Positions 11,812-60,207 of a DNA stretch of 64,000 nucleotides are shown here, piece by piece (position 1 is the stretch's first letter; each line of letters opens with the position of its first letter). The position numbers were made by a program, and so were the translations under genes. The stretch is from Oceaniglobus trochenteri. GTDB taxonomy: Bacteria > Pseudomonadota > Alphaproteobacteria > Rhodobacterales > Rhodobacteraceae. Location: contig NZ_JACNMM010000007.1 of the NCBI RefSeq assembly GCF_020529025.1, positions 1 through 64,000 on the forward strand, in the 5' to 3' direction. Below the pieces are notes generated by a model. The model ran no database searches and had not been told where the DNA came from. It worked only from the letters and a program-made list of their open reading frames with translations.

Positions 11812-11818
11812 GTTTGCC

Positions 11819-22108: not shown

Positions 22109-22111
22109 GAC

Positions 22112-24600: not shown

Positions 24601-24627
24601 GTCCTGTCCGATCGTGAGAAGAGCGGG

Positions 24628-24645
24628 GGGCGCGCATGCGCGCCC
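24628..24645 (-). terminator. Intercistronic hairpin after sugar-binding-protein gene
   Basis: GGGCGCGC-AT-GCGCGCCC is a perfect inverted repeat in the 60-base gap between the binding-protein stop and the ATPase start. It is G+C only and has no T-tract, so partial termination or mRNA protection is more likely than full termination. Confidence 0.5.
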
Positions 24646-24660
24646 TCCCGGTGCGAAACC

Positions 24661-25638: not shown

Positions 25639-25690
25639 AAGTCTTCCTCCCAAAAGAACGACCGGACAGACCCGGCCGCAGCAAACCGGG

Positions 25691-27157: not shown

Positions 27158-27160
27158 TCC

Positions 27161-27175
27161 TTTGGTACGACCAAA
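27161..27175. promoter_or_regulatory. FCD-type GntR operator, aldA side
   Basis: TTTGGTACGACCAAA is a perfect dyad with a 3-base centre and contains TGGTACGACCA, an exact match to the TNGT-N3-ACNA pattern of FadR-type GntR operators. It lies 4 bases upstream of the aldA start, overlapping its leader. The likely ligand protein is the GntR encoded at 28945-29661. Confidence 0.7.
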
Positions 27176-27267
27176 CTATGGGGAACATTCACGCAAATCT
27201 GCCCCGCGTCAACAGATTTTTCCGATATTGCCATTTTTCAGGATATATGCCCAGAATAGCCCGTGCA

Positions 27268-36918: not shown

Positions 36919-36922
36919 GCCC

Positions 36923-38682: not shown

Positions 38683-39135
38683 TCAGCCCTCGGCGGGTCG
38701 GCGTTCGACGATGTAGATATGCTCGCAGGCCAGCACCACTTCGTCGTGCTGGTTGATCACCTCGACCTTCTCGAACAGGCGGCCCGAGCCGGGGCGCTTG
38801 GGGTCGTCTTCCTTGCGGTCGAACGTGAGGCGGGTGCGGATCGTGTCGCCAATGAACACCGGCCGGACGAACCGCAGCCGGTCATAGCCATAGGAAAACG
38901 CCAGCGGGTTCACCTCGGTCGCGGTGAGGCCGATGCCGATGGCAAAGATCATCGTGCCGTGGGCGATCCGGCCGCCGAATTCCGATTTCGCCATGAACTC
39001 GGCATCCATGTGATGCGGGAAGAAATCGCCCGTATGCCCGGCATGGACGACAAAGTCGGTTTCGGTGATCGTGCGCCCCATGGTGGTGCGGCCATCGCCG
39101 ATCTCGTAGTCTTCGAAGTGGCGGGGGCGTTCCAT
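38683..39135 (-). CDS. MaoC-family hydratase/dehydratase (hotdog fold)
   Basis: A 150-residue hotdog protein with the hydratase-2 like region [20 protein letters not shown] and [12 protein letters not shown]. It carries [18 protein letters not shown], which matches [18 protein letters not shown] in the MaoC protein at 50191, so the two are paralogues. MaoC enzymes act on acyl-CoA or acyl-like substrates. Here it is the last gene of a sugar-importer/sugar-acid operon, where a CoA-bound substrate is not obvious. It is coupled to the Gfo/Idh/MocA gene (ends meet at 39135). Confidence 0.85.
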
Positions 39136-40187
39136 CAGGGCAGGTCCTTCAAGGGGGTCATGGGATAGGCCGAGGATTCATAGGCCGCCTCGACAAGGGC
39201 CATGGTGCGCCAGGCGTCCTCGACCGTGGCGATCAGGGGTTCTTCGCCGCCCGCGGCACGTTGCAGGTTGTTCATCCGGCCCAGGAACCCATGGGGGAAC
39301 CAGGCGCCGGTCAGGTCGACCTCGTGCCAGTCGCCGCCTTTGGGCTTCAGGCGCAGGCGGTCAGGCTCACCACGCGGGTAATCCAGGTTGACGCCCATTT
39401 GCAGCCAGGCCGCGCCCTCGGTGCCCGCGACGCGCAGTTCGCAAACCTGGTGGTCGCGCCCGAAGGGCCAGTCGTGGTTGACCGAAAGCGTGCAACGCAC
39501 CTCGTCGCCATAATCCAGAATGGCCGAGGTGCGGGTCTGCGACACATCATGGTTCGGATGGCCGATGGTCTTGGCCTGGACTCCTGTCGGATCGCCCAGG
39601 AAATGGCGGATCAGGTCAAGATAATGGATCGAATGCATCGTGATCTCGATCCGCGGCAAACCTTCAAGGAACTTCCAAAGCCCCCAGGGTGTGTCGAGAA
39701 CGCCGTGCATTTCCACATCGACGATCCGCCCCAGCATGCCGCGATCGACGGCATCCTTCAGCGCCACCATCATCGGCGCGAAACGCAACTGGAAATTGAC
39801 GACCGCCTGCAATTCGCGCGCGCGGCAGACCTTAAGAACCTCGGTCGCGCCGGTCAGGTCGGCGCCCATGGGTTTCTGGATCAGCGCCGGCGCCCCCTTG
39901 GGCAGCCGCGCCAGGATCTCGGCGTGGACGGCGGGCGGGGTGGCCAGGTCAAAGACCGCATCCTCGACCGAAAGGGCCTGGTCCAGGGTCAGGGCGCGGG
40001 TGCCGTTCGCTTCGGCCAGGCGGGCGGCCTTGTCCATGTCGGGGTCGTGGATGCCCGCGATGGTGTAACCGCCCATGGCATAGGCGGGCAGATGGGCATC
40101 GCTGACGATGGACCCGGCGCCGAAGATGACGATGGGCCGCTTCCTTGAAGGGGCGGGCCAGCTTTGGCGCAGGTCGGCATCACTCAT
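39135..40187 (-). CDS. Gfo/Idh/MocA-family NAD(P)-dependent oxidoreductase
   Basis: A 350-residue enzyme with an N-terminal Rossmann domain ([19 protein letters not shown]) and a C-terminal GFO_IDH_MocA domain. The family EKP motif, whose Lys is part of the active site, reads QKP here ([11 protein letters not shown]), with Lys kept. Another conserved region is [20 protein letters not shown]. It probably oxidises a sugar at C1 or a ring alcohol, which would feed the lactonases near 47 and 49 kb (inference). It overlaps the mutarotase gene by 8 bases. Confidence 0.87.
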
Positions 40188-40509
40188 GGAAGAACACTTC
40201 TTCCATGGGGGCCCACCAGTCGTCTTCCCCGGCGGTGTCCAGCTTGCGCTGTTGAGGCATGCAGATTTTCCACCAGTCCTGCGTCACCGGATCGGCGGCC
40301 ATCTTTGCCGCGTCGGCCGCCCAGTCGTCACCGTGATATTCAAAATGCGCGAACAGCAGGTTTTCCGGTTCGCGCAGGTAGATGACGTAGTTGCGGATGT
40401 TGCATTCGCTGATGGTTTTCAACACGCCGGGCCAGACATCGGCGTGAAGGCGTTTGTATTCTGCGATATGTTCAGGGCGCACCCCGATGACCGATCCCAT
40501 TCTGACCAT
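40180..40509 (-). CDS. L-rhamnose mutarotase family protein
   Basis: A 109-residue protein of the RhaM family (about 104 residues is usual). Typical features are VRPEHIAEYKRLHADVWPG, NYVIYLREPENLLFAHFEY and the C-terminal [11 protein letters not shown]. It interconverts anomers of L-rhamnose or a related 6-deoxy sugar such as L-fucose. The start ATG 40509 overlaps the upstream stop by one base (TAATG). ATG 40500 is an alternative. It is in the MalEFGK-type sugar importer operon, which suggests a deoxyhexose as the imported sugar. Confidence 0.9.
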   Translation of the reverse strand: MVRMGSVIGVRPEHIAEYKRLHADVWPGVLKTISECNIRNYVIYLREPENLLFAHFEYHGDDWAADAAKMAADPVTQDWWKICMPQQRKLDTAGEDDWWAPMEEVFFHE

Positions 40510-41627
40510 TATTTTCCCTCCCGGATGTCGCGGTTGAATTCCTCGACGGCGCGGGCCTTCAGGGCGTCGTGATCCCAGTCGATGCCGATGCCCGGTGTCT
40601 CGGGGGCCTGGGCCATGCCGTCCTTGATGGTCACACCGCTGTTGGTGATCTCGTTCAGTTGCGGGATGTATTCGACATAGCGCCCGTTCTGCACGGCGCA
40701 GACAAGGCTGACATGCAGTTCCATCAGGAAATGCGGGCAGACCGGAATGTCGAAACACTCGGCCATATGCGCCACCTTCAGCCAGGGCGTGATGCCGCCG
40801 ATCCGGCCCGCATCGACCTGGATGATCGAGGCCCCGCCCCGGGCGATATATTCAGCGAAATGACGCACCGAATAGAGGCTTTCGCCCACGGCGACGGGCA
40901 TGGCGGCGGCGGCGGCCAGATCGACATGGCCCTGGATGTCGTCGGCGGCCATGGGCTCTTCGATCCAGGCCAGATCGAAGGGGCGCAGCGCCTCGGCCCG
41001 GCGGCGGGCGGTGTCGCGCGAGAAGGCCTGGTTGGCGTCGGTCATGATCTCGTAACCGCTCCCGAGGGCGTCGCGCATGGCCGAGATGCGGGCCACGTCC
41101 TCGGCGGCGGTGGGCTTGCCGATCTTCACCTTCGATCCGGTAAAGCCCTTTTCGCGGGCGGCCAGGGCATCTTCGATCAGGGCTTCGGGGGCGATGTGCA
41201 GCCATCCGCCCTCGGTGGTGTAACAGGGCGCGGCAGGGTGCGCGCCCCCGGCCATCCGCCACAGGGGCAGCCCCGCCTTGCGGCAGCGCAGATCCCACAG
41301 GGCCGTGTCGATGGCCGCCAGCGCGATGGAGGTGATCGCGCCGATGGTGGTGGCATGGGTGGCGAATTCCAGTTCGTGCCAGATCGCCTCGACCGCGCTG
41401 GCATCCTTGCCCAGAAGGCGCGGGCAAAGGTGATCGGCCAGCAGGCGCATGACCGACGATCCGCCGGTGCCGATGGTATAGGAATACCCGATGCCCGTCG
41501 CGCCATCGGAATCGGTGATCGTCACCATGGGCGTTTCCTGGGATTCGAAGCTCTGGATCGCGTCGGTGCGTTTCACCATCGGCACCAGGTCGACCATGGA
41601 AAGCTGGATTCGTTCGATGCGGGCCAT
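40509..41627 (-). CDS. Mandelate-racemase-group sugar-acid dehydratase (second paralogue)
   Basis: A 372-residue enolase-superfamily enzyme. KxK is in GSKVKIGKPT, metal ligands in IMTDANQAF, WIEEPM and VGESLYS, and the histidine region is CPHFLMELHVSL. It is a paralogue of 20016-21116. ATG 41627 is chosen because TGATG couples it to the ATPase stop. The frame extends further but has no supporting start. In this operon it would dehydrate the acid formed from the imported deoxy sugar. L-fuconate or L-rhamnonate dehydratase activity is possible but not proven. Confidence 0.87.
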   Translation of the reverse strand: MARIERIQLSMVDLVPMVKRTDAIQSFESQETPMVTITDSDGATGIGYSYTIGTGGSSVMRLLADHLCPRLLGKDASAVEAIWHELEFATHATTIGAITSIALAAIDTALWDLRCRKAGLPLWRMAGGAHPAAPCYTTEGGWLHIAPEALIEDALAAREKGFTGSKVKIGKPTAAEDVARISAMRDALGSGYEIMTDANQAFSRDTARRRAEALRPFDLAWIEEPMAADDIQGHVDLAAAAAMPVAVGESLYSVRHFAEYIARGGASIIQVDAGRIGGITPWLKVAHMAECFDIPVCPHFLMELHVSLVCAVQNGRYVEYIPQLNEITNSGVTIKDGMAQAPETPGIGIDWDHDALKARAVEEFNRDIREGK

Positions 41628-42724
41628 CAGGCGTCCTTTCGCAGGCTGACGCCGCTGGCAGCGTCGAAAAGATGGGCGCGCGACAGGTTCAGACGGAAGG
41701 GCAGGACCGTGCCACGCCGCACATCGCGCGGGTTCAACATGCGCGATGTCCATTCCGCACCGCCGACCGAGACGAAAAGCAGCGTCTCGTTTCCAAGCGG
41801 TTCGGAGAGCGACACCTCCAGATCCTGCTCGGCCAGCTCGCGGCCCTCGACGGTGTCGATGCCATGGCCCTCGGGATAGATGTCATCGGGGCGCAGCCCG
41901 AACACCACCTCGCGCCCATCGGCCACGTCGAACCCCGGCGGCATGGGAAGGTGCGATCCGTCAGGCAGGCGCAACCTGCCGCCATCGACCGTCGCCTCGG
42001 TCATGTTCATGGGGGGCGAGCCGATGAAGCCGGCCACAAAGCGCGAGGCGGGGCGGTTGAACACTTCGTCCGGGGTGCCGACCTGTTCGATGTTGCCATC
42101 CTTCATGATGACGATGCGGTCGGCCAGGGTCATCGCTTCGACCTGGTCGTGGGTGACGTAGATGATCGTCGATTCCAGCCGCGCATGCAGGCGCTTGATT
42201 TCGGTGCGCATCTGGCCGCGCAGTTTCGCGTCGAGGTTCGACAGCGGTTCGTCGAACAGGAACACGTCGGGGTTGCGCACGATGGCGCGGCCCATGGCGA
42301 CGCGCTGACGCTGACCACCCGAAAGCTGGGCCGGGCGGCGATCGAGCAGCGTCTCGATCTCCAGCACCCGCGCGGCCTCGGCCACGGCGGTGTCGATCTC
42401 GGACTTCGGCTTGCCCGCGATTTTCAGGGTGAAGCCCATGTTCTCGCCCACGGTCATGTGGGGGTAAAGCGCATAGGACTGGAACACCATCGAGATGTTG
42501 CGCGCCCGCGGCGGCAGGTCGTTCACCACCCTGTCACCGATACGGATCTCGCCGCTGGTGATGTCCTCCAGCCCCGCGATCATCCGCAGGGTCGTGGATT
42601 TGCCACAGCCCGAAGGCCCGACAAGCGCCACGAATTCCCCGTCCTGCACGGACAGATCTATTCCCTTAACCGCGTGGAACGCGCCGTAGTTCTTGTCTAG
42701 CTTGCTCAGCGTCAGATCGGCCAT
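41627..42724 (-). CDS. Sugar ABC transporter ATP-binding protein (UgpC/MalK type)
   Basis: A 365-residue ATPase with Walker [10 protein letters not shown], signature [17 protein letters not shown] and Walker [17 protein letters not shown], followed by a C-terminal TOBE-like regulatory region from about residue 240. ATG 42724 gives [14 protein letters not shown]. The longer open frame to 43708 only runs through the permease gene. It powers the MalEFG-type importer and its stop overlaps the dehydratase start. Confidence 0.94.
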
Positions 42725-42753: not shown

Positions 42754-43620
42754 TCAGCCCTTGATCGCGCCCGAGGTAAGGCCCGAAACCAGATGTTTCT
42801 GCACCGCGTAGGTCAACAGCAGCGCCGGGATGATCATCACCACGGCCAGCGCACACATGCCGCGCCAGTCGATGGTGAATTCGGCCGTGTAATCCAGCAG
42901 GCCCACGGGAAGCGTCTTGCTTGCGGTCGAGCGGGTCAGCTGGCTGGCCAGGGCGAATTCGTTCCACGAGGTGAGGAAGGCGAAGATGCCGGCCGAGGCG
43001 ATGCCGGGGCGGGCCAGCGGAAATTCGACCTGCCAGAAGGCCTGCCAGCGGGTGCACCCGTCGATCTGCGCCGCCTCGGCCAGATCCTTGGGCACCTGGC
43101 GGAAGAAGCCGTCGATCAGCCAGATGGTGAAGGGCACGTTCATCGCGACATAAACCAGGATCATGCCGAAGTGGCTGTCGATGATCCCCAGCTTCGCATA
43201 GACGAAGAACAGCGGCAGCGACAACGCGATACCCGGAACGGTGCGCGTCAGCATCAGGCCCAGGAACCAGCTGCTTTTGTAGGGGAAGCGGTAGCGCGCG
43301 AAGGCGTATCCCCCCGCCATCCCGATGGCCAGCGCGATCACCGTCGAGGTGACCGAAATGATGACCGAGTTGCGGAAATAGTCGATCACCGGGATGCCGC
43401 CCTGCCCGATGCCCGAGAACATCGCGATATAGGCGTCGAAGTTCATCTCGCGCGGGATCCAGATGGCGGGTTTCGCCATGATCTCGACCGTCGGGCGGAA
43501 CGAGTTGAGGACAATCCACAGCCCCGGCAGGCAGATGATCGCCATGGCCAGGAACAGAAGGAAATTCAGGGTCCAGCGCGTCAACAGCTTGTTGGCGCGG
43601 GCGGTGCGGTTGGCGTCCAT
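42754..43620 (-). CDS. Sugar ABC transporter permease (MalG type)
   Basis: A 288-residue permease with about six membrane segments and the cytoplasmic EAA loop [23 protein letters not shown] 43620 overlaps the MalF-type stop by one base. It is the second channel subunit of the carbohydrate importer (CUT1 class). Confidence 0.93.
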
Positions 43621-44516
43621 CACCAGTCTCCTGCAACCTGGGCGCGGGCCTTCGCCAACTGGCGGAAGAACATCGCGGTAAAGGCGATCGAAAGAAGGAT
43701 CGCGACATAGCTCATGGCGTTGGCCATCCCCATGCGGGAATCGCCGTAACCGGTGCGCGCGATCAGGGTCCACAAGACCTCGGTCCGCCCGGCCGGGCCG
43801 CCGTTGGTCATGATCTTGATGATGTCATAGGCCCGTGCCACGTCGAGTGACCGGATGGTCATGGCGATGAAGGCGAAGGGCATCAGGAAGGGCCAGGTGA
43901 CATAGCGGAAGGTCTGCCAGGGGGTGCAGCCATCGACGCGCGCCGCTTCGATCGGGTCGCGCGGCATGGCCATCAGCCCGGCCAGGATGAAGATCGCGAA
44001 GACGGCGGTCGAGGTCCAGACCTCGGCGGTCATGATGGCGAAGAAGGCAAGCTGACCGTCGATCAGCCAGGGAATGGCCCTTTCGGTCAGCCCCAGGGAT
44101 TGCAGGGCGTTGTTCACCAGGCCGACGTTGTCGTTGAAGATGAACTTGAACTGGAACCCGACAAGAATGGGCGAGAACATCATCGGGAACATCAGGATCG
44201 TGCGCAGGATGCGCTGGCCGCGGCTGGCCCGTTCGACCAGAAGCGCAAGGCCCAGGCCCAGCACCATTTCAAGGTTCAGCGCCACCGTCAGAAGCAGCAC
44301 CGTGCGCCCGAAGGCCCACCAGAAATCGCTGTCGGTGAAGATGCGTTCGTAATTGCGCAGGCCCACGAACTGATAGATCGAATCCGGCCGGGTCAGCCGG
44401 AACGGCGTCAGGCTGGACCACAGCGACAGGATCAGCGGAAACAAGACCACGGCCGCCAGCACGATCACGGCAGGCAACAGCAATAGAATGTGCGGAGACA
44501 GGCGTGTCGCCTTCAT
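43620..44516 (-). CDS. Sugar ABC transporter permease (MalF type)
   Basis: A 298-residue permease with six or more membrane segments; the EAA loop reads [20 protein letters not shown]. It starts [20 protein letters not shown]. It pairs with the MalG-type subunit downstream and receives substrate from the binding protein encoded upstream, after an intervening hairpin. Confidence 0.93.
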
Positions 44517-44583: not shown

Positions 44584-45906
44584 TCAGAGTTCGCCGGCAT
44601 CCTCGAGGATGATCGTCGCCTCTTCGGCGGCGTCATCCAACGCTTCCTGGGGCGTCTTGTCACCCAGGATTGCGGCCTGAAGCTCGGGGAAGATCATGTT
44701 CGAGATCTCGATCCAGCTTGCGGTCTGCGGCACGGCGAAAGCGGTATCGGCAGCGGTCTGGAACGCGGCCAGCGCTTCCGAGCGGTAGGCGTCGCCCTTG
44801 GCGGCTTCGATCACGTGATCCCACACCGCAGTGCGCGAGGGCAGCGGACCTGCCGAGCTTTCCAGCTTCTGGCTGTCCTCGTTGGTGAGGAACCAGACCA
44901 GCGATGCCGCGGCCTCCTTGTTGGCGCAGTCCTGCGTGACCGAGAAGCCGTGGAAACCCGACCAGCCCGAACGCACCCCGGCCGACCCCTTGGGCGGCGG
45001 TGCAACACCGACGTTGCCCGCGATCTGGCTGGATTCCGGATCGTTGTAGAAGCCGATCCAGCCCGGCCAATCCAGGTTCAGCGCCACGGTGCCGCTGGCG
45101 AAACCGGTGCCGATGTCATCCCACAGATAGTTGGGCACACCGACCGGAACCGCCTTGGCCTGGTAGAGGTCGACGAACCACTGCAGCGCCTCGACACCCG
45201 CGGGCGAGTTGAAGGCCGGGCGGCCCTCGTCATCCAGGTACTGACCGCCATTGGCCACCAGCAGTTCATAGAAGCGGCCGTTGATCGCCTCGTCCTTGCC
45301 GGCGTACTGGGTGCCGTAGAAATCGGGCGGATTGGCGAAGAAGATCGCCTGGTCGCGCACCTCGTCCCAGGTTTCCGGCACGGCCAGCGGATAGCCGTAT
45401 TCCTTTTCGAAGGCGGCGGCCTTGTCGGCGTCTTCGTAGAGGTCTTTCTGGTAATAGAGCGCCGAGACGTCGAACTGCGCGCGCGGCAGCATCACGAGGT
45501 TGCCGTCGATCGTGGCGCTGGTGATGTTGCCCGGCACGAAAGCCTCGATCTCCGAGGCGGGCAGCAGCGCGGCCAGGTCGGTGTAGATGCCCGGATACTG
45601 CGGCGCGAAGGACGAATGGTTCGATCCGACGCACCAGCTCAGGTTGCCGGTGGCGATGTCCGACTTGATCTCGCGGTCCAGCTCGAAGTGGTTCTTCTTG
45701 GACACCACGTTGACCTTGGCACCCGTCGCCTCTTCCCACTCGGTGATGCGGGAATACAGGTTTTCGTACTGCTGTCCGCCGATCAGCTTGGCGTCGATGG
45801 TGACACCCTCGAAGCTGCCCGGCAGATCCTGTGCAATGGCCCCCCCGGCAAACAGCGCGACGGCGCAGCCGGTGCCAAGCAGAGTTATCCTTGAACGACT
45901 CATCAT
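44584..45906 (-). CDS. Carbohydrate ABC transporter substrate-binding protein (MalE class)
   Basis: A 440-residue extracellular solute-binding protein family 1 member. The Sec signal peptide is MMSRSRITLLGTGCAVALFA with cleavage near GGAIAQ. The mature domain begins with GVTIDAKLIGGQQYENLYSR, and WEEATGAKVNVVSKKNHFEL follows. GGGGAGGAGAAACC precedes the ATG pair at 45906 and 45903. It is the first gene of the operon, divergent from the IclR gene, and is probably repressed or activated by it. A 6-deoxyhexose or a related sugar is the likely ligand from context. Confidence 0.92.
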   Translation of the reverse strand: MMSRSRITLLGTGCAVALFAGGAIAQDLPGSFEGVTIDAKLIGGQQYENLYSRITEWEEATGAKVNVVSKKNHFELDREIKSDIATGNLSWCVGSNHSSFAPQYPGIYTDLAALLPASEIEAFVPGNITSATIDGNLVMLPRAQFDVSALYYQKDLYEDADKAAAFEKEYGYPLAVPETWDEVRDQAIFFANPPDFYGTQYAGKDEAINGRFYELLVANGGQYLDDEGRPAFNSPAGVEALQWFVDLYQAKAVPVGVPNYLWDDIGTGFASGTVALNLDWPGWIGFYNDPESSQIAGNVGVAPPPKGSAGVRSGWSGFHGFSVTQDCANKEAAASLVWFLTNEDSQKLESSAGPLPSRTAVWDHVIEAAKGDAYRSEALAAFQTAADTAFAVPQTASWIEISNMIFPELQAAILGDKTPQEALDDAAEEATIILEDAGEL

Positions 45907-45972: not shown

Positions 45973-46045
45973 CATATACAAATTAATGGGCTGATCCTGT
46001 CAAGAAACTTCTGGTCTTTCTTCTGTAATCTGCATATATGAATGC
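45973..46045. promoter_or_regulatory. Candidate IclR-type binding sites in the divergent promoter
   Basis: CATATACAAAT at 45973-45983 and CATATATGAAT at 46033-46043 (within the dyad GCATATATGAATGC, 46032-46045) are closely similar AT-rich elements in an otherwise GC-rich 160-base gap. The first recurs exactly at 49969-49979 before the lactonase and MaoC genes. IclR proteins bind AT-rich dyads of this kind. The regulator encoded at 46067 is the obvious candidate. Confidence 0.55.
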
Positions 46046-46066: not shown

Positions 46067-46888
46067 GTGAGTGACACCGACCGATATCGTGCGCCCGCCC
46101 TGGACAAGGGGCTGGACATTCTGGAGCTGCTGGCCGGGGTTGAACACGGGCTGACCCAGGCCGAGATCGCCAAGCAACTGGGGCGCAGCCCGAACGAATT
46201 CTACCGCATGCTCGACCGGCTTCAGCGGCGCGGCTATGTCGCGCGGGTGGATGGCGAACGCTTTGCCCTGACGCTGAAGCTTTTCGGGCTCGCGCAGCTG
46301 CACGCGCCCATCCGCCGCCTGGTCAGCTTTGCCACGCCACTGATGCGCGAATTGGCCAAGAAGACCGAACAGGCGAATCACATGGTCGTTTTCGACCGGG
46401 GCCGTGCCGTGGTGGTGGCCCAGCAGGAAGCGCCGACCTACTGGGGCTACAGCATCCGTATCGGATCGCAGATCGGGCTGTTCGACACCGGGTCGGGCCA
46501 TGTCATGCTGGCCTTCGCCTCGCCCGAACAGCGGGCCTCGATGCTGGATGCCAACCGCACCGCACACGAACCCGACACGATTCCGCCCGACCTTGAACGC
46601 CGGCTGCACCGGATTCGCGAACAGGGCTACGAAAGCATGAGCAGCGTGCAGACCGCGGGCGTGTTCAACCTGTCGGCGCCGGTCCTGTCGACCGACGGCA
46701 GCGCCCTTGCCGCGCTGACGATTCCCTTCATCACCCACGTCAACGCCCCCAACGCCCCCGACCCTTCGGATGCGACGCATTTCCTGACCGAAATCGCCAC
46801 CCGCCTCTCCGAGGGCATCGGCGCCCAGCGGGCCAAGCCCGACGCAACCCCCCAGGATCTTTCCCAGACCACGAGGCCCAGACCATGA
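46067..46888 (+). CDS. IclR-family transcriptional regulator
   Basis: A 273-residue IclR protein starting at GTG 46067, with GGAGA six bases upstream. The winged helix is at the N-terminus (LDKGLDILELLAGVEHGLTQ, then AEIAKQLGRSPNEFYRMLDR). The C-terminal ligand domain contains HVMLAFASPEQRASMLD and QTAGVFNLSAPVLSTDGSAL. It is divergent from the MalEFGK operon and overlaps the fuconolactonase gene by 4 bases. It may also control the lactonase/CoA operons, which share its putative operator. Confidence 0.92.
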   Translation: MSDTDRYRAPALDKGLDILELLAGVEHGLTQAEIAKQLGRSPNEFYRMLDRLQRRGYVARVDGERFALTLKLFGLAQLHAPIRRLVSFATPLMRELAKKTEQANHMVVFDRGRAVVVAQQEAPTYWGYSIRIGSQIGLFDTGSGHVMLAFASPEQRASMLDANRTAHEPDTIPPDLERRLHRIREQGYESMSSVQTAGVFNLSAPVLSTDGSALAALTIPFITHVNAPNAPDPSDATHFLTEIATRLSEGIGAQRAKPDATPQDLSQTTRPRP

Positions 46889-47748
46889 CCCCCGAGCTGA
46901 TCACCGACACGCACCTGCACATCGTCAACCGCGCCAAGATCGATTATCCGTGGCTGGGCGATGCCCCGGCCCTGAACCGCGACTGGACGCAGGACGACTA
47001 TGCCACCGAGGCGCGCAAGGTCGGCATCGGCCGGGCGCTGTTCATGGAGGTGGATGTTGCGGGCGACCGGATCGGCGACGAGATCGACCACATCAACGAC
47101 CTGGCCGATCAGCCCGGTTCGATGATCGAAGGCATCATCGCCGCCTGCCGCCCCGAATCCGACGGTTTCGCGGCCGAGCGGGAACGGGCCGTCGGCCACG
47201 ACCGGATCCTGGGGTTCCGCCGGGTGCTGCACGTTGTGCCCGACGACGTGTCGCAGGGCGAAACCTTCCGCAAGAACGTTCGCAGCCTTGGCCAGACCGA
47301 CCTGACCTTCGACATCTGCATGGCCGCGCACCAGTTGCCGCTGACCATGGAACTGGTGGATTCCGCGCCCGAAACCCGGTTCATCCTGGATCATTGCGGC
47401 GTGCCCGACATCGCCGGCGACGCCTGGGACGACTGGGCGCGCAACATCACCGAACTGGCGAAACGGCCCAATATCGTCGCCGCCAAGATCAGCGGCATCT
47501 GCGCCTATGCCGCCCCCGACTGGACCGCCGCCACCCTGGGCCGCTGGGCCGGTCACGTCGCCGAAAGCTTTGGCTTCGACCGGCTGGTCTGGGGCGGCGA
47601 CTGGCCGGTCTGCACCCTGGGCGGCGGCCTGTCGACCTGGGTCGGGGCCAGCCGCGCGATCTTTGCCGGATGCAGCGCCGATGAACGCGCGGCGCTGCAC
47701 GATGGAAACGCCGCGCGCATCTGGGGGCTGGCGCCGCTCAGCTCCTGA
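46885..47748 (+). CDS. Amidohydrolase 2 family lactonase, L-fuconolactonase-like
   Basis: A 287-residue metal-dependent hydrolase with TIM-barrel motifs: HxH in DTHLHIV at the N-terminus, His in FILDHCGVPD and Asp in LVWGGDWPVC. This is the pattern of L-fuconolactonase and 2-pyrone-4,6-dicarboxylate lactonase relatives. Coupled to the IclR gene and next to the rhamnose mutarotase operon, L-fucono- or L-rhamnonolactone is a reasonable substrate. Its 3' end overlaps the convergent gene by 11 bases. Confidence 0.87.
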   Translation: MTPELITDTHLHIVNRAKIDYPWLGDAPALNRDWTQDDYATEARKVGIGRALFMEVDVAGDRIGDEIDHINDLADQPGSMIEGIIAACRPESDGFAAERERAVGHDRILGFRRVLHVVPDDVSQGETFRKNVRSLGQTDLTFDICMAAHQLPLTMELVDSAPETRFILDHCGVPDIAGDAWDDWARNITELAKRPNIVAAKISGICAYAAPDWTAATLGRWAGHVAESFGFDRLVWGGDWPVCTLGGGLSTWVGASRAIFAGCSADERAALHDGNAARIWGLAPLSS

Positions 47749-48847
47749 ACGACTCGTCGAACAGGCGCTGCAGATCGTCCAGGGCACCGTCAAGATCGCC
47801 ATCGCGCAGCGCCTGCGACACCCGCGCCGATGCCGGCCCCTGAAAGCCCATGTAACCGTCATGGCGGGGCCGCATCCAGGCCCCGTCCAACGTGGCCAGC
47901 GTGCCGGAATAGAAATGGCCCGCCGCCCGATCGACGCTGTCGTCGGTCCAGGCGGCCCGGTGCCCGGCCTGCCCCCCCGATGAGACAAAGCGCGCGGCCT
48001 GAACCTCGGGGCCGGCAACATAGCGGGCAAAGGCCAGCGCCGCCTCGGGGTTCCTGGAAAACGCCGAAACCGCGATGCCCGTACCGCCAAGCGCAGACCC
48101 GGCCACCCCGCCACCCGGCGCGACCGACGGAATGTCATGGAAGGTCACCGGATTGGCCCGGAACCCCGGCAGGGAATAGTTGATGTAACCATAGATCAGC
48201 GGCGCACAGGCGATTTCGGTTTCCGACATCCTTTCAAGCACGGCGATCGGGTCCATCTCGTAGGCGTCCTGATCGACCAGCGCGGCCAGATCGCGCAACC
48301 GCTGCAAGGCCCGCCGCCCCGCCGCCCGGTCGACAAAGGCGCCCGGCCCGTCGGCGCGGCAGGGATGGCCATCGTTGGCCACGAGGGTGAAGAACGCCAT
48401 CAGGGCATGGGGATCACGCAGCGGGATCAGAACCTTGCCCTGCTGCGCCAGCTCCATCACCGCGGCCCAATCGCGCGCCGGACCATCGGCCAGGTCGGGG
48501 CGGATCGCCTGCACCTGCGCGGCGGCGTCGATCGGCCAGGCCCAGCGTTCGCCCTGCCAGCGATAGCTGTCCACCGACTGCCCCACGCTTGAGCCGGTGA
48601 TTTCGGGCGCCTCGGGCAGGGCCAGAAGGCAACCTTCGGCAAAACACTGCCCCACATGGGGATGGTCGATCACGATAAGATCGTATTCGCGCGCCAATTG
48701 CTCAACCGGGAAACTCTCGAACCCCTGAAGCGAACGCTTGTCCCATTCGATCTCGGCCCCGCCCCGGGCGGCCCAGTCGGCGCTGCAGGCGACCATGGGG
48801 TCGTATCCGCGCGGGTGGCTCCAGGTCATGCCTTTCAGTTTCGTCAT
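47738..48847 (-). CDS. Solute-binding-protein family 1 homologue without a signal peptide
   Basis: A 369-residue protein with the overall look of a carbohydrate ABC binding protein: IEWDKRSLQGFESFPVEQLA near the N-terminus, GGTGIAVSAFSRNPEAALAF and FARYVAGPEVQA late in the chain. The N-terminus, MTKLKGMTWSHPRGYDPMVA, has no hydrophobic leader, so it should stay in the cytoplasm. There is no permease or ATPase gene beside it. It is coupled (4-base overlap) to the lactonase upstream and lies opposite the CoA-transferase operon. Its role is unknown. An intracellular sensor, or an enzyme evolved from a binding protein, are possibilities. Confidence 0.75.
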   Translation of the reverse strand: MTKLKGMTWSHPRGYDPMVACSADWAARGGAEIEWDKRSLQGFESFPVEQLAREYDLIVIDHPHVGQCFAEGCLLALPEAPEITGSSVGQSVDSYRWQGERWAWPIDAAAQVQAIRPDLADGPARDWAAVMELAQQGKVLIPLRDPHALMAFFTLVANDGHPCRADGPGAFVDRAAGRRALQRLRDLAALVDQDAYEMDPIAVLERMSETEIACAPLIYGYINYSLPGFRANPVTFHDIPSVAPGGGVAGSALGGTGIAVSAFSRNPEAALAFARYVAGPEVQAARFVSSGGQAGHRAAWTDDSVDRAAGHFYSGTLATLDGAWMRPRHDGYMGFQGPASARVSQALRDGDLDGALDDLQRLFDESFRS

Positions 48848-49932
48848 CTTGTGATCACCTCCACGATCATGGGCGTGCCGACCTTCAGTCGCCCGCCGGT
48901 TTGCTGCAATGCGCCGCTTTCGCCATCCCGGCGAAAGACGACAATCTCGTCGCTGTTCTGATTGGCCACCAGCACATGCCGCCCCGAGGGCGTGATGGCG
49001 AAGGACCGCGGCGTCGCGCCGCCGCTTGCCACATGGCCCCGCGCGGTCAGCCCCCCGGTCGCGGGGTCGACGGCAAAGATGGCCAGTGAATCATGCCCGC
49101 GGTTGGACACGTATAGATGCCGAAGGTCCGGTGACAGATGGATCGCCGCACAATAGCTGTCGCGCCAGCCCTCGGGCAGGGCCGGACAGGTCGATACCAT
49201 GGTCAGCCCGCCCGCACCGTCGTGTCGGAAGGACTGCACCGTGGAGTTCAGCTCGTTCACCACGAAGACAAGCGCGCCATCCGGGCTGGCGGTCACATGG
49301 CGCGGCCCCGCACCGGCGGCGACAGGGGTTTCACCAAGGCGCGTCAGCCCGCCATCCCGCGCCAGCCGATAGGCCAGCACCCGGTCGATACCGAGGTCGG
49401 CCACCAGCACCACATCGCCCGCCTGTTTCACGCAATGGGCATGGGGGCGTTCCTGACGCTGGGCATTCGGCCCCCTGCCGGTATGGGCAACGCTGGCCAC
49501 GGCCGTGCCAAGGGTGCCATCCGCAAGAACGGGCAAGACGGCCACCGATTTGTCGGGCCCGCCTTCGCCCATGGCGTAATTGGCCACCAGAAGATGCCGC
49601 CCATCCGCCGCAACCGTGGTGTGGGCCGCAATGCTGCCGAGGGTCGGCTGCATGTTGCGATAGGTCAGCCGGCCGCTGGTGCGGTCCAGGCCATAGGCCG
49701 AAACGGTACTTTCCCTGCGGTTGAATACCTCGCTCGTGGCGAAGAGGCTGTCGCCGTCCGCCGAAAGGCCAAGATAGGTCGGGTTGTCGATATCGTCGGT
49801 TTCCGACAGCAATTCACCCTGCCCCGTGGCATCATCGAAGGCGAAAACGGCGATTCCCCGGCCCCTTGCGCCCTGCAGATAGGGGGCGTCGCGGTTCAGG
49901 CATCCCGCGATCAGCAGCAAGGCGTCACTCAT
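48844..49932 (-). CDS. Seven-bladed beta-propeller lactonase (6-phosphogluconolactonase, YbhE type)
   Basis: A 362-residue beta-propeller of the Pgl/YbhE class. Repeated blade motifs include RHLLVANYAMGEGG, GPRHVTASPDGALVFVVNEL, LRHLYVSNRGHDSLAIFAVD and GRHVLVANQNSDEIVVFRRD. ATG 49932 is chosen because AAGGAGACGGGAC lies upstream. It would hydrolyse a sugar lactone or a phosphogluconolactone to the acid. It heads a two-gene operon with the binding-protein homologue, divergent from the MaoC-CaiB genes. Confidence 0.87.
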   Translation of the reverse strand: MSDALLLIAGCLNRDAPYLQGARGRGIAVFAFDDATGQGELLSETDDIDNPTYLGLSADGDSLFATSEVFNRRESTVSAYGLDRTSGRLTYRNMQPTLGSIAAHTTVAADGRHLLVANYAMGEGGPDKSVAVLPVLADGTLGTAVASVAHTGRGPNAQRQERPHAHCVKQAGDVVLVADLGIDRVLAYRLARDGGLTRLGETPVAAGAGPRHVTASPDGALVFVVNELNSTVQSFRHDGAGGLTMVSTCPALPEGWRDSYCAAIHLSPDLRHLYVSNRGHDSLAIFAVDPATGGLTARGHVASGGATPRSFAITPSGRHVLVANQNSDEIVVFRRDGESGALQQTGGRLKVGTPMIVEVITR

Positions 49933-49968
49933 GTCCCGTCTCCTTGTGATGGGTTGGCCGGATTGATG

Positions 49969-49979
49969 CATATACAAAT
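49969..49979. promoter_or_regulatory. Copy of the CATATACAAAT motif upstream of the lactonase and MaoC genes
   Basis: CATATACAAAT lies 37 bases upstream of the lactonase start in the 258-base divergent gap to MaoC. It is identical to the element at 45973-45983 in the IclR promoter, suggesting these operons belong to one regulon. Confidence 0.5.
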
Positions 49980-50128
49980 AGCTCACTCAAGTAAGAATAT
50001 TCATGGCCGATCCATTTCCGAACATCCATCAAGGCCGAAGCGACCCGACCTGATGGCGGCCCGGAACATCGCCGCATTTAAAAGGGCAAGGCCGGTGAGA
50101 ATTCAAACCTGCCCTGAAAACACGTCGA

Positions 50129-50157
50129 TTGACAACATCCTTCACTGGTGAAACAAT
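50129..50157 (+). promoter_or_regulatory. Candidate sigma-70 promoter of the MaoC-CaiB-Pta-AckA operon
   Basis: TTGACA at 50129-50134 is followed after 17 bases by AACAAT (50152-50157), giving a perfect -35 and a 4/6 -10 about 34 bases before the MaoC ATG. The remainder of the gap shows no gene. Confidence 0.45.
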
Positions 50158-50190
50158 TCTTCAAATTGCATCGTGCCGTGAGGAGACGCC

Positions 50191-50757
50191 ATGACCGATT
50201 TCGCCCCCACCGTTGGAGTTTCGTCCACCCACCCGAAATCCATGCCCAGCGACCACGCCGAGATCCCGGTCTGGAACGCCGAGAACTGGTTTTACGAGGA
50301 TTGGCCCGTCGGTCAGAAGATCCGGTCGCTGCGCCGCACCATCAGCGAGGGCGAAAGCCACCAGTTCAACATGCTGGTGACCGACATTCACCCCTATGTG
50401 CAGGATGCCATCTTCGCCGAAACCGAAGGCGTGTTCGACCGCCGGCTGGTGGCGGGCGCCTTCGTCTTTTCCGCCGGTCTGGGGCTTGTCGCGACGAACT
50501 GCATCAACGCCTTCTCCTATGGCTATGACAAGATGCGCTTCATCAAGCCGACCTTCATCGGCGATACGATCTACACCATCCGCACCAACATGGAGAAACG
50601 GCCCAAGTACAAGGAAATGGGCCTGATCCGCGCCTCTTACGAGGTCTACAAGAACGAAGGCGAACTTGTGCTCTACTGCGAACACCTGCAAACCGTGAAA
50701 TACAACAACCCTGCCGATTTCGCCGGCAAGACCGAGGCTGACACAAATGGCAAATGA
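50191..50757 (+). CDS. MaoC-family hydratase/dehydratase
   Basis: A 188-residue hotdog-fold protein. [20 protein letters not shown] near residue 110 matches the paralogue at 38683. The histidine/aspartate of the hydratase-2 type motif is less clear here: the aligned stretch reads [20 protein letters not shown], so it may lack classical hydratase activity. GAGGAGACGCC precedes the ATG. It overlaps the CoA-transferase gene by 11 bases and therefore probably acts on the same CoA-linked intermediate. Confidence 0.83.
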
Positions 50758-51907
50758 ACGCCGCCTGCCCCTGAACGGCATCACCGTCGTGGACATGAGC
50801 CAGTTTCTTTCGGGCCCCTATTGTTCGCTGCGCCTGCTGGACCTGGGCGCGCGGGTGATCAAGGTCGAACGCCCCGATGGCGGCGACCTGGCCCGCCGGC
50901 TGTACCTGTCGGACACCGAGATCGGCGGCGACAGCACGATCTTTCACGCCATCAATCGCGGCAAGGAAAGCTTGGCCATCGACCTGAAGAACCCCGACGA
51001 CATGGCGATCCTGCGCAAGCTGCTGGGCCAGGCCGACGTGATGATCCAGAATTTCCGCCCCGGCGTGATCCAGCGCCTGGGGCTGAGCTATGAGGAGGTG
51101 CGCCAGATCAATCCGCGCCTCGTCTATGGCTCGATCACCGGTTACGGCACCGAAGGCCCCTGGGTGAAGCGCCCCGGTCAGGATCTTCTGGCCCAGGCGC
51201 GTTCGGGGGTGATGTGGCTGAACGGCGACGAAAGCCACGGCCCGGTCCCCTTCGGGCTGGCGGTGGCCGACATGCTGGCCGGGGCGGCCCTGTGCCAGGG
51301 CCTGCTGGCGGCGCTGGTCGGGCGCGGTGTGACCGGCGAGGGCGAACATGTGGAAACCTCGCTTCTCGAAGCGCTGGTCGATCTGCAGTTCGAGGTTCTG
51401 ACCACCCACCTGAACGACGGGCGCCGCCCGCCCCGCCGCTCGGACCTGCGCAGCGCCCATGCCTATCTTTCGGCCCCCTATGGCGTCTATCCCACCGCCG
51501 ACGGGTTCATCGCCATCGCCATGACCCCCATCGGCAAGCTGGCCGATCTGCTCGGGCTTGAGACGCTGGAACCCTTCCGCGACGATTCCGCCAGCTGGTT
51601 CACCAAGCGTGACGAAATCAAGGCGATCCTCGCCGCCCATCTTGCCACCGACACGGTAGCCAACTGGCGCGCCCTGCTGGAGCCGGCCGACATCTGGTGC
51701 GCCGAAGTGCTGGACTGGCCACAGCTTCTGGACAGCGAAGGCTTCAAGGCGCTGGACATGCTTCAGACCGTCACCCGCGAAGACGATGTGAGCATCGAAA
51801 CCACCAAGTCGCCCCTGCGCATCAGCGGCCAGCGGTCGGGCATCCGCACCGCCGCCCCCCGGATCGGGGAACACAGCGCGACCATCCGCAAGGATTTCGC
51901 CCTCTAG
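50747..51907 (+). CDS. CaiB/BaiF-type (family III) CoA transferase
   Basis: A 386-residue family III CoA transferase. The catalytic aspartate is Asp146 in [14 protein letters not shown]-terminal [20 protein letters not shown] and [12 protein letters not shown] are characteristic. Family III enzymes exchange CoA between carboxylic acids by a ping-pong or ternary route and usually serve one unusual acid. The length is near the usual 400. It follows MaoC with overlap and precedes phosphotransacylase and kinase genes, forming an acyl-CoA handling unit. The acid cannot be named from sequence. Confidence 0.92.
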
Positions 51908-51994
51908 GGTGCGCGCGCCCCGGCCCGTCTGCCGATTGCCAAGCATGGCCCATTCGTGCACCCATGGGCCATGCATGCCACCGGAGGACAGCAT

Positions 51995-52924
51995 TTGACC
52001 GATCATTACCAGCAAATCCTCGATCTCTGCGCCCCCCTGCCGCCGCTGAAGACGGCGGTGGTGCATCCGGTCAAGGCCAATGTCCTGGGCGCGGTTGTCG
52101 ATGCCGTCACCGAAAACCTGATCCTGCCGGTGCTGATCGGGCCGCGCGCCCGGATCGAATCTGCCGCCGCCGAGGCGGGCATCGACATCGCCGCCTTCGA
52201 GATCGTCGAAGCCGAACACAGCCACGAGGCGGCCCGGAAGGCCGCCCAGATGGCGGCGGCGGGCCGGGTTGCGGCCATCATGAAGGGCGCGATCCATACC
52301 GACGAACTGCTGGGTGCGGTGGTGCGGAGCGATGCCGGGCTGCGCACGGAAAAGCGCATCTCGCACGCCTTCCTGATGAGCATCGAGGACTATCCCAAGC
52401 CCTTCATCATCACCGATGCCGCCGTCAACATCATGCCCGATCTGGCGATCAAGGCCGACATCCTGCAAAACGCCATCAACCTCTGGAAGGTCGTCTTCGG
52501 CTTCGACCAAACTCCGAAGGCCGCGATCCTGGCGGCGGTCGAAACGGTGAACCCGCGCATGCAGCCGACGCTGGACGCCGCCGCCCTGTGCAAGATGGGG
52601 GACCGGGGCCAGATCACCGGCGCCATCATCGACGGCCCGCTGGCCTTCGACAACGCCATCAGCGCCGCCGCCGCACGGCAGAAGGGCATCGTTTCGCCCG
52701 TGGCGGGTGAGGCCGACATCCTTCTGGTGCCCGATATCGAGGCGGGCAACATGCTGGCGAAACAGCTGATCTTCATGGGCGGCGCGGATTCGGCGGGCAT
52801 CGTCATGGGCGCGCGGGTGCCGATCATGCTGACCAGCCGCGCCGACAACCGGCGCGCGCGGCTTCTGTCCTGTGCGCTGGCGGTCCTGGTGGCCGGGGCG
52901 CGGGCGCGGGGCGATCTGAAATGA
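51995..52924 (+). CDS. Phosphate acetyl/butyryltransferase
   Basis: A 309-residue PTA/PTB-family enzyme, which converts an acyl-CoA and phosphate to acyl phosphate and CoA. Family marks include PFIITDAAVNIMPDLAIKAD, AILAAVETVNPRMQPTLDAA and CKMGDRGQITGAIIDGPLAF. TTG 51995 is preferred as start because CCGGAGGACAG lies just upstream. ATG 51971 is an in-frame alternative. In many bacteria this domain is fused to a MaoC-type domain. Here it stands alone, with MaoC two genes upstream. It overlaps the acetate kinase gene by 4 bases. Confidence 0.9.
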   Translation: MTDHYQQILDLCAPLPPLKTAVVHPVKANVLGAVVDAVTENLILPVLIGPRARIESAAAEAGIDIAAFEIVEAEHSHEAARKAAQMAAAGRVAAIMKGAIHTDELLGAVVRSDAGLRTEKRISHAFLMSIEDYPKPFIITDAAVNIMPDLAIKADILQNAINLWKVVFGFDQTPKAAILAAVETVNPRMQPTLDAAALCKMGDRGQITGAIIDGPLAFDNAISAAAARQKGIVSPVAGEADILLVPDIEAGNMLAKQLIFMGGADSAGIVMGARVPIMLTSRADNRRARLLSCALAVLVAGARARGDLK

Positions 52925-54033
52925 CCGACACGCTGCTGGTTCTGAATGCCGGGTCGTCCAGCCTGAAGTTCAGCATGTTCCGGCAGGGCGACCTGGGCCT
53001 GCTGGCCAGGGGGCAGGTCAGCCGCATCGACGGCGCCGCCACCTTCACCGCCGGGCTGACCGGCAAACCGCCCGAAACCCGCGACATGGCCAAGGGCGCC
53101 GATCATGTGGCGGCCCTTGAATCGGTCCTCGATTTCATCGACCGGCACGACGACTCCTGGCGCATCGCTGCCGTGGCGCACCGCGTGGTGCATGGCGGCA
53201 GCGATTTCACCGGCCCCATCCTGGTGAACCCGCAGGTCATCCAGGCGCTGGCCGCGCTGACGCCCCTCGCCCCGCTGCACCAGCCCCATAACCTGGCGGC
53301 GATCGACGCCGCCGGGCGGCTGTTGCCGAAGGTGGCGAACATCGCCTGTTTCGACACCGCCTTTCACACCACCCTGCCCGAATTGCACAGCACCTTCGCC
53401 CTGCGCCGGGAGCTGCGTGACAAGGGCATCTGGCGCTATGGCTTTCATGGGCTGTCCTACCGCTGGATCGCCCGCGTCCTTTCCGAAGATCACCCACAGC
53501 TTGCGGCGGGGCGGGTGGTGGCCGCGCATCTTGGCAATGGCGCCAGCCTCTGCGCGATGCGGGGCGGCGAAAGCCTTGACACCACCATGGGCCTGACCGC
53601 GCTGGACGGGTTGACCATGGGCACCCGCGCGGGCGCCATCGACGCGGGCGCCGTCCTCTACATGCAGCGCGCGCTGGGGATGAGCATCGAGGACACCGAG
53701 GACGAACTTTACCGCCGCTCCGGGCTGCTGGGCCTATCGGGGCTGAGCAACGATGTCGAAACCTTGCTGGGGTCAGACGATCCGCGCGCAGGTTTCGCAC
53801 TGGATCATTTCGCGCTGAGGGTGGCCCAGTTCAGCGCGAAGATGGCGGTGTCCATGGGCGGGCTGGACGGAGTCGTTTTCACGGGGGGCATCGGCGAACA
53901 TGCCGCGCCGGTGCGCGAGGCCATTCTTGCGCGGCTGGCTTTCCTTGCCCCCTTCGAGGTCCAAATCATTCCCGCGAACGAGGAACGGATGATGGCCATC
54001 GAGGCGCAGGCGGTTCTGTCGGCCACGGGCTGA
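52921..54033 (+). CDS. ackA: Acetate/butyrate kinase
   Basis: A 370-residue kinase of the acetokinase family (usually about 400). Visible motifs are LVLNAGSSSLKFSMF, AHRVVHGGSDF, GFHGLSYRWIA, AAHLGNGASLCAM, MGLTALDGLTMGTRAG and VFTGGIGEHAAPVRE. It forms ATP from acyl phosphate and ADP, the second half of substrate-level phosphorylation with the phosphotransacylase encoded just before. The acyl group need not be acetyl, given the CoA transferase context. Confidence 0.92.
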   Translation: MTDTLLVLNAGSSSLKFSMFRQGDLGLLARGQVSRIDGAATFTAGLTGKPPETRDMAKGADHVAALESVLDFIDRHDDSWRIAAVAHRVVHGGSDFTGPILVNPQVIQALAALTPLAPLHQPHNLAAIDAAGRLLPKVANIACFDTAFHTTLPELHSTFALRRELRDKGIWRYGFHGLSYRWIARVLSEDHPQLAAGRVVAAHLGNGASLCAMRGGESLDTTMGLTALDGLTMGTRAGAIDAGAVLYMQRALGMSIEDTEDELYRRSGLLGLSGLSNDVETLLGSDDPRAGFALDHFALRVAQFSAKMAVSMGGLDGVVFTGGIGEHAAPVREAILARLAFLAPFEVQIIPANEERMMAIEAQAVLSATG

Positions 54034-58560: not shown

Positions 58561-58579
58561 GGTTCCCCCCGGATGGTCG

Positions 58580-58599
58580 GGGGGCGGCGCACCGCCCCC
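58580..58599 (-). terminator. Intercistronic hairpin after DppA gene
   Basis: GGGGGCGG and CCGCCCCC form a perfect 8-bp stem with a CGCA loop, in the 46-base gap between DppA and DppB. It lacks a T-tract, and is one of seven hairpins directly following binding-protein genes. Confidence 0.5.
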
Positions 58600-58606
58600 G
58601 CCGGTT

Positions 58607-60172: not shown

Positions 60173-60207
60173 GAGGTCCACTCCCTGATCTGATTATTGC
60201 CCTCAAT

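Follow-up and report, generated by a model that had tools for sequence, protein, structure and literature searches.

A recurrent gene trio in sugar-acid clusters hints at processing of sugar acids while bound to coenzyme A

To our knowledge, the described oxidative pathway of L-fucose and L-rhamnose has no coenzyme A (CoA) step, no MaoC or CaiB protein and no cytoplasmic binding protein. In carnitine dehydratase, CaiB passes CoA back and forth between product and substrate, serving the hydratase CaiD (PMC2131755). Here, we consider a stretch of 64,000 nucleotides from Oceaniglobus trochenteri (contig NZ_JACNMM010000007.1, positions 1 to 64,000; hereafter the window) in which genes recalling both systems stand together, namely those for a CaiB/BaiF-type CoA transferase (CaiB), a leaderless homologue of sugar-binding proteins (SBPc), two MaoC proteins (MaoC150 and MaoC188), a beta-propeller lactonase, a phosphotransacylase (PTA) and an acetate kinase (AckA), next to genes for 6-deoxy-sugar oxidation (coordinates in Table 1). 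As judged from gene neighborhoods, the recurrent unit is CaiB together with a leaderless binding protein and a hydratase, and this trio raises the possibility that certain sugar acids stay bound to CoA during their processing.

A preliminary description of positions 47738-54033 had named six genes (SBPc, lactonase, MaoC188, CaiB, PTA and AckA) and interpreted the last four as a route from an acid through its CoA ester and acyl phosphate to ATP. The observation is confirmed and the interpretation is partly supported. Specifically, all six genes are intact open reading frames that match the claimed families in profile searches of the window proteins, and the GC content of third codon positions (GC3) backs all six as genuine. 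The gene cluster reaches back to 38683, beyond the region described before, and this part includes a second, catalytically intact MaoC. In the explanation that we consider best, and to which as a whole we assign a probability of roughly 0.38, the region would be the lower half of one catabolic cluster at ~38.7-51.9 kb with an IclR regulator, serving a 6-deoxy sugar of the L-fucose/L-rhamnose type, and its CaiB/SBPc/hydratase module would dehydrate a sugar acid by cycling CoA, in the manner of carnitine dehydratase. The assignment to L-fucose or L-rhamnose rests on neighbor annotations and on general background: annotated relatives carry an L-fuconate dehydratase and an L-rhamnose mutarotase, a diketo-deoxy-rhamnonate hydrolase model matched below its cut-off, and the Sinorhizobium genes SM_b21101-21112 presumably have a role in L-fucose use (Fitness Browser/GapMind). 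For six of these locus tags, no paper was found in the open-access literature searched.

The central evidence is the conservation of CaiB with SBPc. A scan for SBPc with one genome per species gave at least 467 relatives, of which the best 80 loci were kept and read; many of these loci are cut by contig ends or by the 10-kb flank. CaiB adjoins SBPc on the same strand in 80/80 loci, and in 79 of them the two matched segments are separated by 0-27 bp. The other components were found less regularly (IclR in 70, MaoC188 in 63, or 59 by a different method, the permease in 61, the exported binding protein in 61, the amidohydrolase in 59, Gfo/Idh in 47, MaoC150 in 46, MR/MLE in 39 and the lactonase in 32 of the 80 loci), while PTA and AckA were found in none. 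The six genes of the preliminary description are, thus, not kept together as six, an outcome that the description had itself named as refuting its pathway; what is kept is CaiB with SBPc throughout, and MaoC188 and the lactonase in part. A MaoC or crotonase hydratase is present in 77/80 loci and, as in a carnitine-dehydratase-like system, the CoA transferase is encoded alongside an enoyl-CoA hydratase. The module mostly adjoins a 6-deoxy-sugar operon with an IclR regulator, and this conserved linkage, together with the motif shared in the window, bears out the suggestion that the module goes with the neighboring sugar-oxidation genes.

In a set of 101 genomes including the window's own (thresholds of E 1e-60 for SBPc, 1e-100 for CaiB and 1e-35 for MaoC150), SBPc occurs in seven; this CaiB occurs in six, all among those seven (Fisher P 5.5e-9), and MaoC150 in six, five of them among the seven (Fisher P 1.6e-6), with both P values being rough because the genomes are related to one another. 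SBPc was detected in 0/5 genomes of the same genus, so the cluster is patchily distributed. The SBPc family is patchy as well, with the Variovorax kind in 2/300 Burkholderiales genomes, the Sinorhizobium LMB1 kind in 6/385 Alphaproteobacteria genomes (the window's own included) and SBPc in 18/398 genomes across the phylum. A Mantel test of SBPc distances against those of the nearest CaiB (n=30, r=0.74, 0/2000 permutations) fits co-evolution of the two proteins, though shared species history remains in this result. CaiB itself is covered by PF02515 over residues 9-377 of 386 (E 7.8e-103), and its Asp, at the position that we take from formyl-CoA transferase to be catalytic, aligns with three solved CaiB/Frc-type proteins and is kept in 106/106 matches, as expected of a CaiB/BaiF family III CoA transferase. 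Among the equivalog models, none scored over its cut-off with CaiB, and CoA transfer is predicted from the family.

Variants of this arrangement were also observed. In one relative (L017, G030:C10, 6317-11391) two CaiB copies flank SBPc between MaoC188 and the lactonase, and two CaiB copies are likewise found in L155, L156, L160, L161 and L166. In many Mesorhizobium loci (L033, L035, L042 and others among L029-L108), a second ABC transporter, of the ribose type, separates SBPc from the amidohydrolase and IclR genes, which might mean that another substrate is taken up.

SBPc is leaderless, as had been proposed. In the window sequence and 62 homologues of our choosing, a start codon lies at most 12 residues before a conserved TW motif in 63/63 sequences. 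A hydrophobic N-terminal extension is possible in only one of them (L166, from a TTG start), and the remaining 62 lack the export signal of solute-binding proteins. The predicted structure (pLDDT 95.9, 44 sequences in the alignment) has an intact sugar-binding-protein fold with trehalose-binding LpqY as its best structural match (TM 0.86), in line with the match to PF13416. Twenty-one positions, including D56, D61, D107, R13 and R326, are invariant in two overlapping alignments, and these columns hold even in homologues of only 26% identity, which are found with different sugar transporters. The protein has conserved motifs of its own (W-x-HPRG, DHPH and GGQPG), and a conserved RP near the C-terminus also aligns with a solved sugar-binding protein. 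The plainest reading is that SBPc would be a cytoplasmic binding subunit. The window's genome also encodes another SBPc, diverged from the first (31%), which is accompanied by a ribose-type ABC transporter and has a CaiB gene ~5.5 kb away (G000:C29:60021-67657; L025, L026); a similar gene order, with UxuA and a crotonase in addition, is found in L157-L159.

The two MaoC proteins differ at the active site. We take the signature of the (R)-hydratases of the PhaJ/MaoC type to be a catalytic Asp with a His five residues on. MaoC150 has both residues (GD[FY]FPHH in 59/59 matches) and matches PDB 4ffu over its full length (E 2e-69). MaoC188, which had been named as the hydratase, has D-x-H-P-Y-V in 64/64 matches and, in an alignment with 4ffu, keeps the Asp while the catalytic His is replaced by Val; it is, therefore, unlikely to be a canonical hydratase, and we rejected it as such. 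Because MaoC188 is conserved, it would nevertheless have some function. Among the 34 loci in which the stretch that was read contains no MaoC150, 11 genomes were probed and all 11 encode it, just outside the stretch in at least L069, L073 and L099 and elsewhere on the chromosome in L108. Two Martelella loci (L040, L086) lack MaoC188 and have MaoC150 directly after CaiB and SBPc, which argues for MaoC150 as the working hydratase. By its residues and this distribution, MaoC150 is the likelier hydratase of the two.

More distant versions of the cluster point to an exchangeable hydratase. We read 36 further SBPc stretches, mostly more distant, with some near-duplicates (L151 and L187 from one species, L157-L159 from one genus) and some close relatives (L164). 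Gene labels in these stretches, like those behind the hydratase count in the 80 loci and part of the labels of the window operon, were taken from the top match in a small reference set. This set comprised annotated plasmid regions, the window and four IlvD proteins encoded in the window's genome, and a diverged dehydratase might therefore have escaped notice. CaiB lies within 100 bp of SBPc in 23 of the 36 stretches, within 1 kb in 25 and anywhere in the stretch in 30. The CaiB/SBPc/hydratase module was found in Alphaproteobacteria and also in Variovorax and Streptomyces plasmids. In many distant clusters, including those of Sinorhizobium meliloti LMB1, Variovorax, Azospirillum and Streptomyces, a crotonase replaces MaoC, and in the Rhizobium Q54 cluster a crotonase lies beside a MaoC; CaiD is, we assume, crotonase-like too. 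A crotonase is encoded in 16 of the 25 stretches with CaiB less than 1 kb from SBPc, and seven of these 16 (two of the seven from one species) also have an FAH-family enzyme. In this group of seven, which was picked after the data had been seen, no MR/MLE, IlvD or UxuA label was found (0/7). The seven stretches contain a sugar-dehydrogenase-type gene and/or an aldose epimerase (not all in each) as well as a keto-deoxy-acid enzyme, some of them also have an aldehyde dehydrogenase, and the one FAH protein of the seven that was tested, from Azospirillum, is related to 2-keto-3-deoxyarabinonate dehydratase. From this gene content, CaiB, SBPc and the crotonase may stand in place of the dehydration step in the seven stretches. 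In L165 and L168, CaiB and SBPc occur with both a crotonase and an intact small MaoC, next to a TRAP transporter, in a compact arrangement that is perhaps for an imported acid.

In the window, the two divergent promoters share a motif, as the preliminary description had noted. CATATACAAAT occurs exactly twice in 64 kb, once between the transporter and IclR genes and once between the lactonase and MaoC188 genes, compared to 0.06 copies expected, an optimistic expectation because the motif was chosen by eye ahead of counting. In related loci, the window motif (≤1 mismatch) lies upstream of the transporter in 42/67 cases compared to 49/7057 background windows (transporter windows included). We also built a 23-base matrix from the relatives' transporter sites, leaving out the window but with sites seeded by the window motif, and compared it with shuffles of two-base blocks; an earlier comparison with background windows was uninformative because the background held true sites. 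The lactonase/MaoC188 site is the top-scoring matrix site in the 64-kb window. Among the relatives, 65/67 transporter promoters scored above all shuffles, a circular result because of the seeding, and for the same reason the result for the MaoC188 promoters is only partly independent (45/65 with at most 3/60 shuffles reaching the score, 17/65 above all 60). The lactonase promoters gave 13/35 with at most 3/60 shuffles reaching the score (4 above all), and the regions upstream of the amidohydrolase gene scored better than those of MaoC188 (56/65; 40 above all shuffles). Operator-like sites of the TTCATTCAAATAAGAATT type were observed upstream of the amidohydrolase gene (65 related loci). Co-regulation is clear in the window and only suggested in relatives, and the IclR protein would be the candidate to bind the CATATACAAAT-type motif.

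PTA and AckA were considered as parts of the pathway and rejected because of their 0/80 conservation, which leaves the pair without conserved linkage to CaiB and MaoC. PTA homologues (E 1e-60 or better) are present in 31/101 genomes; five relatives encode both PTA and SBPc (G010, G012, G018, G030, G039), and there the two genes are on different contigs or, for G018 and G039, share a contig with a distance of at least 0.13 Mb between them. In the five other PTA loci that were labeled, PTA adjoins AckA without a CaiB, SBPc or MaoC label. Because the pair is absent from 80/80 related loci and occurs elsewhere without the module genes, it looks like a common unit that joined this operon locally. 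The PTA and AckA frames overlap by 4 bases. Because AckA is the only PF00871 match in the window's genome and PTA scores best with the fused MaoC-PTA protein family PRK08190, over its cut-off, the pair might nonetheless be of use to the operon, for instance as a source of acetyl-CoA to act as the first CoA donor.

Gene content, linkage, active-site residues and the motif shared in the window are direct observations; the substrate, the CoA esters, the cycle and the role of SBPc we infer as follows. CaiB would transfer CoA from 2-keto-3-deoxy-acyl-CoA to an aldonate, giving aldonyl-CoA and the 2-keto-3-deoxy acid, and MaoC150, or a crotonase in other clusters, would convert aldonyl-CoA to 2-keto-3-deoxy-acyl-CoA and water with removal of the 3-OH. 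The 2-keto-3-deoxy product would then hand its CoA to the next acid, so that no ATP would be spent after priming, and PTA and AckA could prime the cycle by turning acetate into acetyl-CoA. SBPc, by type a periplasmic sugar-binding protein but retained in the cytoplasm, would bind and present the polyhydroxy acid, and MaoC188 might have an accessory role, perhaps as the non-catalytic partner in a MaoC heteromer. These data are read most economically as a CoA step on a sugar-derived acid. More tentatively, we suggest a widespread and undescribed three-part sugar-acid dehydratase that recycles CoA, composed of a CaiB-type transferase, an exchangeable MaoC or crotonase and a formerly periplasmic sugar-binding protein recruited as a cytoplasmic binding or catalytic subunit, which might act in place of or beside IlvD- or enolase-type dehydratases; on balance, we consider this generalization doubtful.

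Several observations weigh against CoA-cycling dehydration. The window's own cluster type also encodes a free-acid MR/MLE dehydratase (39/80 loci), so CoA-dependent dehydration would be redundant, act on another or second acid, or belong elsewhere in the pathway. MaoC188, the hydratase homologue closest to CaiB, looks non-canonical. In relatives, the window motif (≤1 mismatch) is upstream of MaoC188 in 1/66, of CaiB in 0/88 and of the lactonase in 0/35 cases, and support at the MaoC188 promoter comes only from the looser, window-seeded matrix (45/65). SBPc is found without CaiB in 6/36 further stretches. Four of these (L024, L113, L183 and L184) have an MR/MLE or UxuA dehydratase, L182 is a short fragment at the edge of a contig, and in L026, from the window's genome (C29), a CaiB lies ~5.5 kb off, outside the stretch. 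Outside the crotonase and FAH group, which was delimited only after the data had been seen, 4/9 crotonase stretches with a close CaiB and no FAH carry a dehydratase label (L111, L153, L155, L170), as do four of the 12/36 stretches with FAH (L018, L161, L163, L184). Some of these points fit an alternative that we regard as possible though unlikely, in which the CoA module acts on an acid of the same cluster without dehydrating it, with CaiB and MaoC188 racemizing or epimerizing the acid or carrying out another CoA-ester step, or acts on a second substrate. Besides the MR/MLE dehydratase and the lost His of MaoC188, this alternative would account for the L-fuconate dehydratase that is annotated as a separate gene in three annotated relatives, for racemases within the CaiB family (matches to 2-methylacyl-CoA racemase), for the additional ribose-type transporter of many relatives and for the TRAP transporters, which usually import acids, in some SBPc clusters. 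Against it stand the clusters of the crotonase type, which encode a proper hydratase for enoyl-CoA and, in the stretches that also have FAH, no detected free-acid dehydratase (7/7 of that post hoc group), and the intact MaoC150 that goes with the module.

The invariant columns of SBPc allow yet another reading, namely that SBPc has an enzymatic activity of its own, having evolved from a sugar-binding protein into a dehydratase or lactone hydrolase, with CaiB acting before or after it. Other binding-protein folds have become dehydratases, and an enzyme could account both for 21 invariant columns kept down to 26% identity beside different sugar transporters and for SBPc genes without CaiB; because the predicted model is an ordinary sugar-binding-protein fold, some of the conserved motifs (RP near the C-terminus) align with a solved sugar-binding protein and no catalytic site was identified in SBPc, we find this improbable. 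The pathway of the preliminary description, in which CaiB activates a sugar acid, MaoC188 hydrates or dehydrates it and PTA and AckA recover ATP through acyl phosphate, draws on four genes arranged head to tail, the last two with overlapping frames, on the sole PF00871 match of the genome and on the precedent for a MaoC-PTA link in PRK08190. However, the absence of PTA and AckA from all 80 related loci, the separation of PTA from SBPc in the five relatives that have both, the five PTA-AckA pairs without module labels and the missing His of MaoC188 make it very improbable, and since PTA and AckA are absent from the related loci and MaoC188 has lost the His, the linear order from acid to CoA ester, acyl phosphate and ATP is without comparative support. 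Mere neighborhood of a sugar operon and an unrelated acyl-CoA operon, adjacent by chance, is disfavored to a similar degree: three Phyllobacterium loci (L087, L097, L108) have a MaoC188-CaiB-SBPc unit away from the sugar operon and the window motif is all but confined to the window at MaoC188 promoters (1/66 in relatives), but both promoters of the window share CATATACAAAT, the linkage extends to IclR in 70/80 and to the transporter in 61/80 loci, and CaiB and SBPc recur independently in other sugar clusters with a different hydratase.

Table 1 Features of the predicted catabolic cluster and of the adjoining PTA-AckA pair (window coordinates)
Feature	Coordinates	Strand	Basis or remark
MaoC150, catalytically intact MaoC hydratase (GDFFPHH)	38683..39135	-	orthologue-like match to PDB 4ffu
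Gfo/Idh/MocA dehydrogenase	39135..40187	-	66% to annotated Nitratireductor homologue
L-rhamnose-mutarotase-type protein (RhaM-like)	40183..40509	-	69% to annotated L-rhamnose mutarotase
MR/MLE (enolase superfamily) sugar-acid dehydratase	40509..41753	-	top model talarate/galactarate dehydratase, below cut-off
UgpC-type ABC ATPase	41639..42724 (match range)	-	similarity match
ABC sugar permease	42757..43620 (match range)	-	similarity match
ABC sugar permease	43620..44516	-	similarity match
SBPp, exported sugar-binding protein	44584..45906	-	hydrophobic N-terminal leader
Operator-like motif CATATACAAAT, transporter/IclR promoter	45973..45983	+	
IclR-family regulator	46067..46888	+	family match
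Amidohydrolase, L-fuconolactonase-like	46885..47748	+	below NCBIfam cut-off
SBPc, leaderless binding-protein homologue accompanying CaiB	47738..48847	-	SBP_bac_8-like, PF13416
7-bladed beta-propeller lactonase	48844..49932	-	PF10282
Operator-like motif CATATACAAAT, lactonase/MaoC188 promoter	49969..49979	+	
MaoC188, MaoC fold family, conserved D-x-H-P-Y-V, canonical catalytic His lost	50191..50757	+	
CaiB/BaiF family III CoA transferase (CoA_transf_3)	50747..51907	+	catalytic Asp position kept
Phosphate acetyl/butyryltransferase (PTA_PTB)	51956..52924	+	outside conserved module
Acetate/propionate-family kinase (acetokinase, AckA)	52921..54033	+	outside conserved module

For the lactonase, the mechanical call of the start is a GTG at 49986, and the ATG at 49932 is likelier from the sequence. 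Sugar-catabolism genes are abundant across the window. Two more sugar-type clusters, at 7000-12500 and 18200-27200, have RbsA/RbsC-type genes, a FadR-type regulator and MR/MLE dehydratases (75% and 39% to references). Parts of an ABC transporter at 35800-38660 score below cut-off with TIGR03868, TIGR03869 and TIGR03873, the models of a hypothetical 'F420-0 ABC transporter', and a GntR/FCD regulator and a dipeptide-type ABC transporter at 54062-60181 are convergent to the acetokinase gene.

If CoA-cycling dehydration is correct, the non-phosphorylating sugar-acid routes, with their free-acid dehydration by IlvD, enolase and UxuA enzymes, would gain a CoA-dependent alternative, aldonyl-CoA intermediates would be predicted, and a set of annotations as CaiB or 'ABC substrate-binding protein' in rhizobia and roseobacters would be misleading, with these binding proteins being intracellular partners of CoA enzymes. 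Even with the chemistry wrong, the recurrent pair of CaiB and a leaderless binding protein would be an unexplained and testable module. The gene set looks undescribed, as had been suggested: in the open-access literature searched, we found no description of CaiB, SBPc and a hydratase in a sugar cluster, and six sugar-acyl-CoA names gave 0 papers.

How, then, does the locus compare to known systems? With the non-phosphorylating oxidative L-fucose/L-rhamnose pathway, the window has in common an ABC importer, a mutarotase-type protein, a dehydrogenase, a lactonase and an enolase-superfamily dehydratase, so that the dehydrogenase, lactonase and dehydratase families and the sugar importer are all represented at the level of families; relatives also share with it an SDR, an FAH-family hydrolase and an annotated L-fuconate dehydratase. 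Beside the window operon, neither a 2-keto-3-deoxy-acid dehydrogenase (SDR) nor a diketo-acid hydrolase (FAH) was labeled, and six FAH-family matches lie elsewhere in the genome. The phosphotransacetylase-acetate kinase pair is the known gene pair, matching the PTA and AckA models, and is, unlike the conserved module genes, apparently a local insertion. SBPc shares its fold and family with extracytoplasmic sugar-binding proteins of the LpqY, SmoF and MalE type but differs from them in having no export signal, in adjoining the gene of an intracellular CoA transferase in 80/80 loci and in its own motifs. No CaiC-type ligase was labeled in the clusters, although no search aimed at CaiC was made. 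As in the L-carnitine dehydratase CaiB/CaiD of Enterobacteria (PMC2131755), a family III CoA transferase is combined with a separate enoyl-CoA hydratase, which in distant clusters is a crotonase; in contrast to that system, the module described here, with its predicted substrate and CoA cycle, sits in sugar-acid clusters, may use a MaoC as the hydratase and includes a leaderless binding-protein homologue.

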